A DNA stretch of 64,000 bases from Methylacidimicrobium sp. B4 (GTDB taxonomy: Bacteria; Verrucomicrobiota; Verrucomicrobiia; Methylacidiphilales; Methylacidiphilaceae), in NCBI RefSeq assembly GCF_017310545.1, contig NZ_CP066203.1, positions 1,612,001 through 1,676,000 of the forward strand, in the 5' to 3' direction. The position numbers and the translations under genes are program-made. Numbering within the stretch: the first letter of the stretch is position 1; each line of letters begins with the position of its first letter. This document shows positions 11,122 through 24,280 of this stretch, one piece after another. Under the pieces are notes generated by a model that did not search any database, had not been told where the DNA came from, and saw only the letters and a list, made by a program, of their open reading frames with translations.

Positions 11122-11457
11122 ATGGGAAACCTGACGCGAAGGGATTTGGTGGTGCAGGTTGCGGAGGAGACCAATCTACCGCAGCAGCAGGCGGCAAGGG
11201 TCCTGGGCTCTTTATTGCGAATTCTCATGGAGAGCTTCGGGAATCGCCAGAATATCGAGCTGCGGAATTTCGGCGTGTTCGAAATCGCGTTGCGTCGTGC
11301 CCGTGTCGGCCGGAACCCTCGGAGCCCGGGACGGGACATCACGATCCCTCCTCGCGCGGTCGTCCGCTTCAAGCCAGGGAAGCAGGTCAAGCGAATCCTG
11401 CAAAAGGTGACGCAAGAGCTTCTGGAGGAGGGTGCGGCGAAAAAAAGCTCGCCCTGA
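11122..11457 (+). CDS. HU/IHF-family DNA-bending protein
   Basis: This 111-residue nucleoid protein has the typical order: an N-terminal helical dimerisation segment (LTRRDLVVQVAEETNL), FGVFEIALRRARVGRNPRSP and the DNA-binding beta arm (PPRAVVRFKPGKQVK). The C-terminal helix is extended by a charged tail. A strong GGAGGGGGGAG purine run lies just upstream. It is divergent from metG and followed by hisS. The sequence cannot say whether it acts as an HU homodimer or an IHF subunit. Confidence 0.93.
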   Translation: MGNLTRRDLVVQVAEETNLPQQQAARVLGSLLRILMESFGNRQNIELRNFGVFEIALRRARVGRNPRSPGRDITIPPRAVVRFKPGKQVKRILQKVTQELLEEGAAKKSSP

Positions 11458-23372: not shown

Positions 23373-23406
23373 CTGGCACGCGATGTGCTTTCATTAGGGA
23401 AGATAA

Positions 23407-23435
23407 TTGACAGCGATCGCCGCAAAGACTATTCT
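23407..23435 (+). promoter_or_regulatory. Putative promoter of the four-repeat protein gene
   Basis: TTGACA at 23407-23412 and TATTCT at 23430-23435 are exactly 17 bases apart. They lie 18 bases before the ATG at 23453, so the leader would be about 10 bases. A small inverted repeat, TCTC(7)GAGA, covers the predicted start region. Confidence 0.55.
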
Positions 23436-23452
23436 CTCGAGTTAAGAGAACT

Positions 23453-24280
23453 ATGAAAACAACCGAAGCTCCGGCTGAGAGCGGAAATCGGGAGTGGAGC
23501 GAAGAGATTCTCCTGCGAGAGATCCGTGCGTGGCGGCGCCAGGGGAGGCCGCTCTACTCGCACTACATGCGCCAGCATTATCAGGAACTGCTTGCGGCGG
23601 GAATCCGCTACTTCGGCAGCTGGGAGAAGGCCGTAGAAACGGCAGGAATTTCGTATGCGGAGGTGCGGCGCTACCAGCGGTGGTCCAAGAAGAGCATCGT
23701 CGAGAAGATTCGTGCGCTCCACGCGCAGGGGGCTGATCTCTCCTTCCGGGCCTTGATGCTGAGCCCCTATGCTCCCATGGTCTATGCGGCCATTCGTCCG
23801 GTCTACTTCGGCAGCTGGAAAGACGCCCTTCTCGCTGCGGGGCTTGCCCCTGCCGATATCTATCGATACCGGTCCTGGAAGGATGCAGATATCCTGCGGG
23901 AGATCCGTCGTCTCCATGCCGAAGGGGCTGACTTGAGCTCGAAGCACATGGATGAGCAGGCCAACTCCCTGATCGCCACCGCGAGGCGGCGGTTCGGGTG
24001 CTGGGGTGCCGCCGTGGAGCGCGCTGGGCTCGATTATGCGAAGATTCGGAAGCGGAAGCGCTGGAGCGAAGCGGAGATCATCGAGCAGATCCGCGCCCTG
24101 CAGGCGCAGGGGGTGCCCCTGACGAGCACGGAGGTGCGCAATCGGGAGCCTTCCCTCTTTGCAGCGGCATGCAAGCGGCGCTTTTTCGGAAGCTGGAGGC
24201 AGGCGATCCAGTCGGCCCTAGGCAAAGCGGAGAGAGCTAGCCAGGATTGCACGACGGCTGGCCGCGGGTCTAACCGCTAG
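23453..24280 (+). CDS. Protein made of four tandem ~60-residue helical repeats, function unknown
   Basis: Almost the whole 275-residue sequence is four copies of one unit starting near residues 15, 77, 142 and 204. Each unit follows W-x-x-x-x-I-[LV]-x-x-I-R-x-L-x-x-x-G, a middle helix, then R-x-FG-[SC]W-x-x-A-[VIL]. Examples are YFGSWEKAVETAGISYAEVR and RRFGCWGAAVERAGLDY. The FGSW...A..AG pattern recalls the homing-endonuclease-associated repeat (HNH_repeat, PF18780) that flanks nuclease or DNA-binding domains, but here no nuclease domain accompanies it. It is basic (many Arg/Lys), so DNA or RNA binding is a reasonable guess. It has its own promoter. Confidence 0.75.
   Translation: MKTTEAPAESGNREWSEEILLREIRAWRRQGRPLYSHYMRQHYQELLAAGIRYFGSWEKAVETAGISYAEVRRYQRWSKKSIVEKIRALHAQGADLSFRALMLSPYAPMVYAAIRPVYFGSWKDALLAAGLAPADIYRYRSWKDADILREIRRLHAEGADLSSKHMDEQANSLIATARRRFGCWGAAVERAGLDYAKIRKRKRWSEAEIIEQIRALQAQGVPLTSTEVRNREPSLFAAACKRRFFGSWRQAIQSALGKAERASQDCTTAGRGSNR

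Follow-up and report, generated by a model that had tools for sequence, protein, structure and literature searches.

A nuclease-free array of four HNH_repeat units, conserved across the Methylacidiphilales, as a candidate DNA-binding regulator

The window analysed here is a stretch of 64,000 nucleotides (positions 1612001-1676000) from the 2.37-Mb genome of Methylacidimicrobium sp. B4, which lies on a single contig. At 23453..24280 on the plus strand it holds an open reading frame with an ATG start that encodes a stand-alone four-unit HNH_repeat (PF18780) protein of 275 amino acids, an assignment that rests on the frame itself and on order-wide profile matches. Alignment of the units, all on the plus strand, places unit 1 at residues 14-75 (23492..23677), unit 2 at residues 76-140 (23678..23872), unit 3 at residues 141-202 (23873..24058, with an AlphaFold model as a further basis) and unit 4, the least conserved of the four, at residues 203-262 (24059..24238). 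A tryptophan stands near the start of each unit (W15, W77, W142 and W204), and the four units carry, in order, the motifs FGSW, FGSW, FGCW and FGSW. Pfam assigned four stretches of the protein to PF18780 with 87.7 bits (cut-off 26; E 6.5e-25), with no catalytic domain scoring above threshold. Nuclease families were absent from the Pfam, NCBIfam and PADLOC scans; the NCBIfam rows all fell far under cut-off and PADLOC returned none. The top PHROG is a family without known function, and no other PF18780 protein was found in the source genome. The sequence-only reading, which had noted an invariant Trp and FG[SC]W in each of four units, proved exact by the open reading frame, the Pfam scan and an alignment of 46 proteins; its statement that there is no catalytic domain agrees with a Pfam scan that lists PF18780 and no nuclease, and the similarity to HNH_repeat that it had set beforehand as a check is borne out by the score just given.

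An antisense open frame (23429-23947 on the minus strand, 172 amino acids, with 192-304 amino acids in four relatives) overlaps the gene and is probably a GC-rich shadow frame. No nuclease was noticed among the neighbouring genes, which were read by eye. In 13 of 34 placed loci the gene immediately upstream, on the same strand, is of GT9 type (cluster 5); the count rests on 34 of 50 loci, the ORF picker having lost the target in the other 16, often to a longer antisense frame. A conserved operon was considered and rejected: the GT9-type gene has this position in 13 of the 34 placed loci, neighbours differ in other families, and no functional partner emerged from the neighbourhood.

The four-unit protein is no chance frame: the gene is a fixture of its order. 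Each of the 13 genomes of the family has one match, and a four-unit profile built from 16 relatives matches 61 of 62 Methylacidiphilales genomes and all 15 genera, the single miss being a genome that is 66% complete. Coverage of the profile is near full length in 58 of the 61 (in G400, G418 and G427 the match is split or cut), and two genomes, G409 and G416, have extra, weaker matches besides the main one. Across a sample of the class, 66 of 384 genomes match, namely the 61 of the order and five of the 322 outside it; of these five, one match is near full length (G328, E 1.3e-122), one is intermediate (G522, E 1.1e-49) and three are weak. PF18780 as such was found in 45 of 387 genomes of a phylum sample at E 0.001, and above cut-off in 28 of the 387. 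The nearest named relatives of the protein are from Methylacidimicrobium and Methylacidiphilum. A quick tree of 46 proteins sorts them by genus and family, with these two genera, the family to which they belong and the subdivision 6 group each kept together; several of its deep nodes are flagged as unsure, and the branch of L035 is very long. Between the window and Methylacidiphilum sp. Yel (L051) the protein is 66.5% identical. Its neighbours, with names taken from reading of the sequences, span 81.7% (sigma factor-like), 74.2% (RND-type), 74.0% (cysteine synthase-like), 67.6% (Apt-like), 52.8% (GT9-like) and 45.1% (channel-like) in the same comparison. In light of this order-wide presence, a tree that follows the taxa and neighbour-like conservation, the gene behaves as a vertically kept core gene and not as a mobile one.

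The mobile, patchy distribution expected of an HNH homing endonuclease is not what was found, the gene being present in nearly every genome of the order. No match at E 0.001 occurred in 50,697 phage records, IMG/VR gave a single weak relative, and the 28 plasmid records that match are all below 60% identity, nine of the ten listed being haloarchaeal. These results give no support to a mobile element in the order at the present day. Nor is the protein to be taken as a stray piece of a homing endonuclease; 61 of 62 genomes of the order carry it, and a nuclease is absent. That the gene belongs to the core of a whole order, and has a sigma-54-type element before it in half of the relatives compared, lay beyond what the sequence-only reading could see. 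Three loci titled Bacteroidetes, Betaproteobacteria and Paceibacterota (L054, L060 and L077, respectively) hold the gene in the form typical of the order, and in the tree their proteins fall among those of the order; the titles are therefore probably wrong or the bins contaminated.

Conservation within the units was followed in the 46-protein alignment, which comprises 45 proteins of the order and L035; L046-L051 were left out as from genomes already represented, L055, L081, L083, L085 and L086 for an unsure start, a cut end or N, and L088-L094 as three-unit relatives. The four units of one protein share a mean identity of 34% and at most 50%, whereas across species units 1 to 4 are 63, 71, 72 and 55% identical, respectively. 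In every unit the Trp of FGxW is invariant (100%) and the first Trp nearly so (98-100%); the scaffold positions common to the units are W, I, G, L, FGxW, A and AG. Residues that are specific to one unit yet fixed across species lie mostly in helices 2 and 3, examples being DLSFR in unit 2 and DLSSK together with ARRRF in unit 3. Unit column 40, at or just past the end of helix 3 as limited in the AlphaFold models, is occupied by Arg or Lys in 98-100% of the sequences of each unit. Every one of the 46 proteins is basic (pI 9.5-10.4), with 22 positions that are at least 95% K/R against seven that are at least 95% D/E. This pattern would be better explained by four distinct faces, all for one fixed ligand, than by a generic binder in four copies.

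Structure prediction agrees on small helical units and leaves their arrangement loose. AlphaFold gave the whole protein, from 39 sequences, a mean pLDDT of 88.4 and a pTM of 0.51, so that how the units lie relative to one another is uncertain; residues 139-200 (unit 3), from 64 unit sequences, gave a pLDDT of 88.7 and a pTM of 0.75, with helices only. Foldseek searches of the PDB with the whole model and with unit 3 returned no match at E 0.001 or better. VIA placed TetR helix-turn-helix domains at the head of its rows for the whole model (Z up to 5.3, 2.7 A, 55 residues), and for the unit model uS15 (Z 4.0, 2.8 A, 59 residues) ahead of Tn1549 integrase (2.3) and Cre (2.2). By the tool's own scale, Z values of 5.3 and 4.0 are common, and at all of these values little can be read from helices that are arranged alike. 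BFVD held one phage protein without known function (E 1.3e-4). Sequence searches of the PDB gave chance-level rows only (best E 0.015 and 0.12), with no solved relative.

More is learned from the company that the units keep elsewhere. Among the 22 relatives of the phylum sample that were scanned with Pfam, which are the highest-scoring loci (10 + 12) and thus a non-random set, HNH is fused to PF18780 units in four (L018, L019, L020 and L031). Other partners are Helicase_C and Peptidase_S24, together in L033, a serine recombinase in L039 (with a unit just short of the cut-off, 25.9 against 26) and a Sigma70_r3 match in L017; PF18780 stands alone in 14 of the 22, and one other has a sub-threshold ROS/MucR match. 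Arrays with a ROS/MucR-like zinc-finger region under the Pfam cut-off were seen in L041, L119:4732-7470 and L124:1667-3205, of which L119 is a longer stretch of the gene of L037, itself among the 14 PF18780-only relatives. A plasmid protein of Brevibacillus sp. HD3.3A, WP_173600033.1 (L150:2560-3936), has an HNH_repeat array followed by a C-terminal XRE HTH_3. It is mainly because the defined fusion partners act on DNA that DNA is the likely ligand of the window protein.

Unit number, which the sequence-only reading had proposed to survey in homologues, ranges from 3 to 13-14 when counted with a profile of window-type units. Three units are found in proteins of about 195 amino acids from another verrucomicrobiotal order and in Armatimonadota-labelled MAGs (L088-L090), five and seven in two arrays of G522, nine in L119, and 13 and 14 in arrays of G458 and G452, respectively. 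L116:3611-7674 holds a 13-unit array and a second of six units in another frame, and L117:2030-4975 holds 14 units; the 13-14-unit arrays of these two Verrucomicrobiota genomes are part of a cell-wall gene cluster, where they adjoin mraY-, murD-, murE- and murF-type genes, as read by eye. In the long arrays all 33 units keep the equivalents of Trp 184 and of the Arg at residue 154 of the window protein. Variation is greatest at the positions that correspond to 163, 164 and 167 (helix 2), 171, 172 and 175 (turn and helix 3), 185 (start of helix 4) and 200 and 202 (linker), and helix 1 varies too. The three-unit proteins match in 44 of 137 genomes of the other order at E 0.001, two of them weakly. 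In genus g138, two genomes each hold four to five near-full-length three-unit copies plus fragments (L028, L030 and L123, from G331 and G293), and the match counts of seven in G331 and 11 in G293, unlike those of most other genomes, make expansion or mobility of these copies possible. Another three-unit relative (L034:1300-2223) ends in a long, basic Ala/Lys/Pro-rich C-terminal tail, which resembles histone H1-like tails.

Upstream of the gene lies a sigma-54-type promoter element, TGGCACGCGATGTGCT (GG-N10-GC), at 23374..23389 on the plus strand, whose pattern is conserved upstream in relatives. The spacing GG-N10-GC is that of the sigma-54 promoter consensus. Of 48 members of the order, 24 have TGGCAY-N7-GC in the 250 bases before the gene, as against 5 of 412 control upstreams, with at least six state changes on the tree (Fisher 4e-22, a value that overstates the case since the 48 sequences are related). 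Nearer the start codon is a sigma-70-type promoter-like site, TTGACA-17-TATTCT (23407..23435, plus strand), and TTGACA is enriched in relatives, where it stands within 70 bases before the start in 26 of 48 as against 5 of 424 control upstreams. The 48 upstreams omit L035, L046-L051, L083, L085 and L088-L094, and both control sets (412 and 424) are upstreams of greedily chosen ORFs of at least 100 amino acids from the same loci, some of them probably spurious. Given these conserved elements of both types, the gene probably has its own promoters. A search for RNA structure at the gene start gave no signal (z 1.03), and within the 64-kb window the sigma-54-type pattern is found once against 0.67 expected, no excess over chance.

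Across the source genome the pattern TGGCAYRNNNNNTGCT has 23 sites, as against three with the reversed control; several of the 23 fall within long open frames and may be chance. Sites lie upstream of P-II, NifH, NifB-type, NifW, homocitrate-synthase-type and ammonium transporter genes, the ammonium transporter frame starting 297 bases past its site; ten frames near the 23 sites were picked by eye for the Pfam scan, one of which (L146) had no match. With P-II, nif and ammonium transporter genes downstream, the pattern marks nitrogen-linked sigma-54 genes. The sites taken together (L126-L148, in G000) outline a putative sigma-54 regulon, in which sites also stand before BBP2-porin and TonB-type genes. 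Sigma54_DBD matches the source genome and 52 of the 62 genomes of the order. The element is missing from 24 of the 48 upstreams, including those of the subdivision 6 group, which contig coordinates suggest to be family f87. Loss of rpoN as the reason was tried and rejected, 16 of 21 f87 genomes having an rpoN match, one of them partial; as the element is absent in half of the upstreams while most f87 genomes keep rpoN, sigma-54 control is not universal. Sigma-54-dependent amtB promoters have been described in a relative, in passages of a paper (PMC3404531) that are themselves silent on the gene at 23453-24280.

Without a cutting domain, and as a core gene of its order, the protein is most likely an ordinary chromosomal DNA-binding, probably regulatory, protein. 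The explanation that we favour, as probable though by no means assured, is that of a four-unit, strongly basic chromosomal DNA-binding protein, most likely a transcriptional regulator of the Methylacidiphilales. Its four tandem units, with no known catalytic domain, would be helix-turn-helix-like, each folding into a small bundle with four main helices, of which helices 2 and 3 bear the residues that are unit-specific yet fixed across species and would form the contact face. As these residues differ between units but not between species, the four units probably grip jointly one fixed site on the DNA, or a few such sites. In this genus transcription would probably start from a sigma-54-type promoter such as nitrogen genes also have, in presumed dependence on RpoN, and the second, sigma-70-type promoter near the start codon probably drives the gene as well. 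Of the stand-alone nucleic-acid-binding array that the sequence-only reading had proposed, the stand-alone, nuclease-free part holds, and binding is the best reading that charge and fusion partners suggest.

A protein so basic, and kept across the order even in assemblies of 1.3-2.2 Mb (many of them incomplete), might instead be architectural, a nucleoid-associated protein that shapes the chromosome through four DNA-binding units with little preference for any sequence; the three-unit relative with the histone-like Ala/Lys/Pro-rich tail can be read in the same sense. This is rather unlikely, however, in that all 13 genomes of the family have separate HU-family genes, an abundant architectural protein would not usually be served by a sigma-54-type promoter, and unit-specific, fixed residues in helices 2 and 3 suggest a specific target. 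Replacement of HU is likewise not supported by those 13 genomes. HU/IHF (PF00216) is absent from the Pfam scan of the protein itself, and one of the genome's two HU-family matches lies inside the window (11131-11400; G000:C1:1623131-1623400). High basic charge would also suit an RNA-binding protein, for example a ribosome-associated one, and uS15, which heads the VIA rows for the unit model, is an RNA binder; but the Z value of that row (4.0, with 2.8 A over 59 residues) falls in the range of common helical arrangements, and none of the defined partners that PF18780 has in the scanned proteins acts on RNA by its name, which makes RNA an improbable ligand.

Helical repeat arrays often bind proteins, and the first Foldseek rows for the whole model, none of them significant, include helical-repeat proteins, the IFIT2-IFIT3 heterodimer among them. 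A protein-protein scaffold, with units that bind another protein and not nucleic acid, is nevertheless very unlikely in the face of the basic charge and the DNA-acting fusion partners, and a pTM of 0.51 gives no confident superhelix. The family name and the HNH domains of 4 of the 22 scanned relatives would be accounted for if the protein descended from a mobile homing endonuclease, had shed its HNH domain and were now left as a relic, passive or in decay. Retention in 61 of 62 genomes and 15 of 15 genera, fixed unit-specific residues, and an identity between two genera (66.5%) that is close to that of the Apt-like neighbour (67.6%) and above that of the GT9-like one (52.8%) make such a relic very unlikely: decay is excluded, and an ancient nuclease origin is possible.

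A search of the literature with partial coverage, including tandem helix-turn-helix proteins and Verrucomicrobia, found no description of the 275-amino-acid protein; in one paper (PMC8078820), the accession PF18780 appears in a table row of a section on repeat families without known structure. PF18780 is known through its association with homing endonucleases, and a protein that consists of little but the units offers a clean system for finding the ligand of the unit. It is also a candidate uncharacterised core regulator in acidophilic methanotrophs, tied by a promoter element to a nitrogen-linked sigma-54 regulon. We regard as doubtful, although worth stating, the wider proposal that PF18780 arrays are unrecognised modular DNA-readers, in which unit number would set the length of the site and helices 2 and 3 its sequence, the four-unit version being the core sigma-54-linked regulator of the order.

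Among the closest known systems is PF18780 HNH_repeat (Homing endonuclease associated repeat), with which the protein shares four matching stretches (87.7 bits), but that family is named for repeats that lie beside homing endonucleases, whereas the window protein has no nuclease and is the product of an order-wide core gene. To WP_173600033.1, annotated as a helix-turn-helix transcriptional regulator, it aligns at residues 14-225 (28% over 219 columns, E 4e-26); unlike the window protein, WP_173600033.1 has an extra N-terminal region, a C-terminal XRE HTH_3 and a location on a Bacillota plasmid. The three-unit proteins of about 195 amino acids are likewise stand-alone PF18780 arrays, with nearest named kin in Lentisphaerae/Oligosphaeraceae MAGs (L091-L094), but their last unit is degenerate, their presence patchy and their copies several in some genomes. 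TALE and other modular arrays also join tandem helical units in one chain, as do PF18780 arrays of up to 13-14 units. TALE units are near-identical, differ at one pair of residues and each read one base. The units of the window protein, in contrast, are not near-identical (34%), with variation over many positions, and in the long arrays it is spread over helices 1-4 and the linker, so that the one unit per recognition step that the first reading thought conceivable finds no support in a TALE sense; the variation of the long arrays leaves modular reading possible without establishing modularity.
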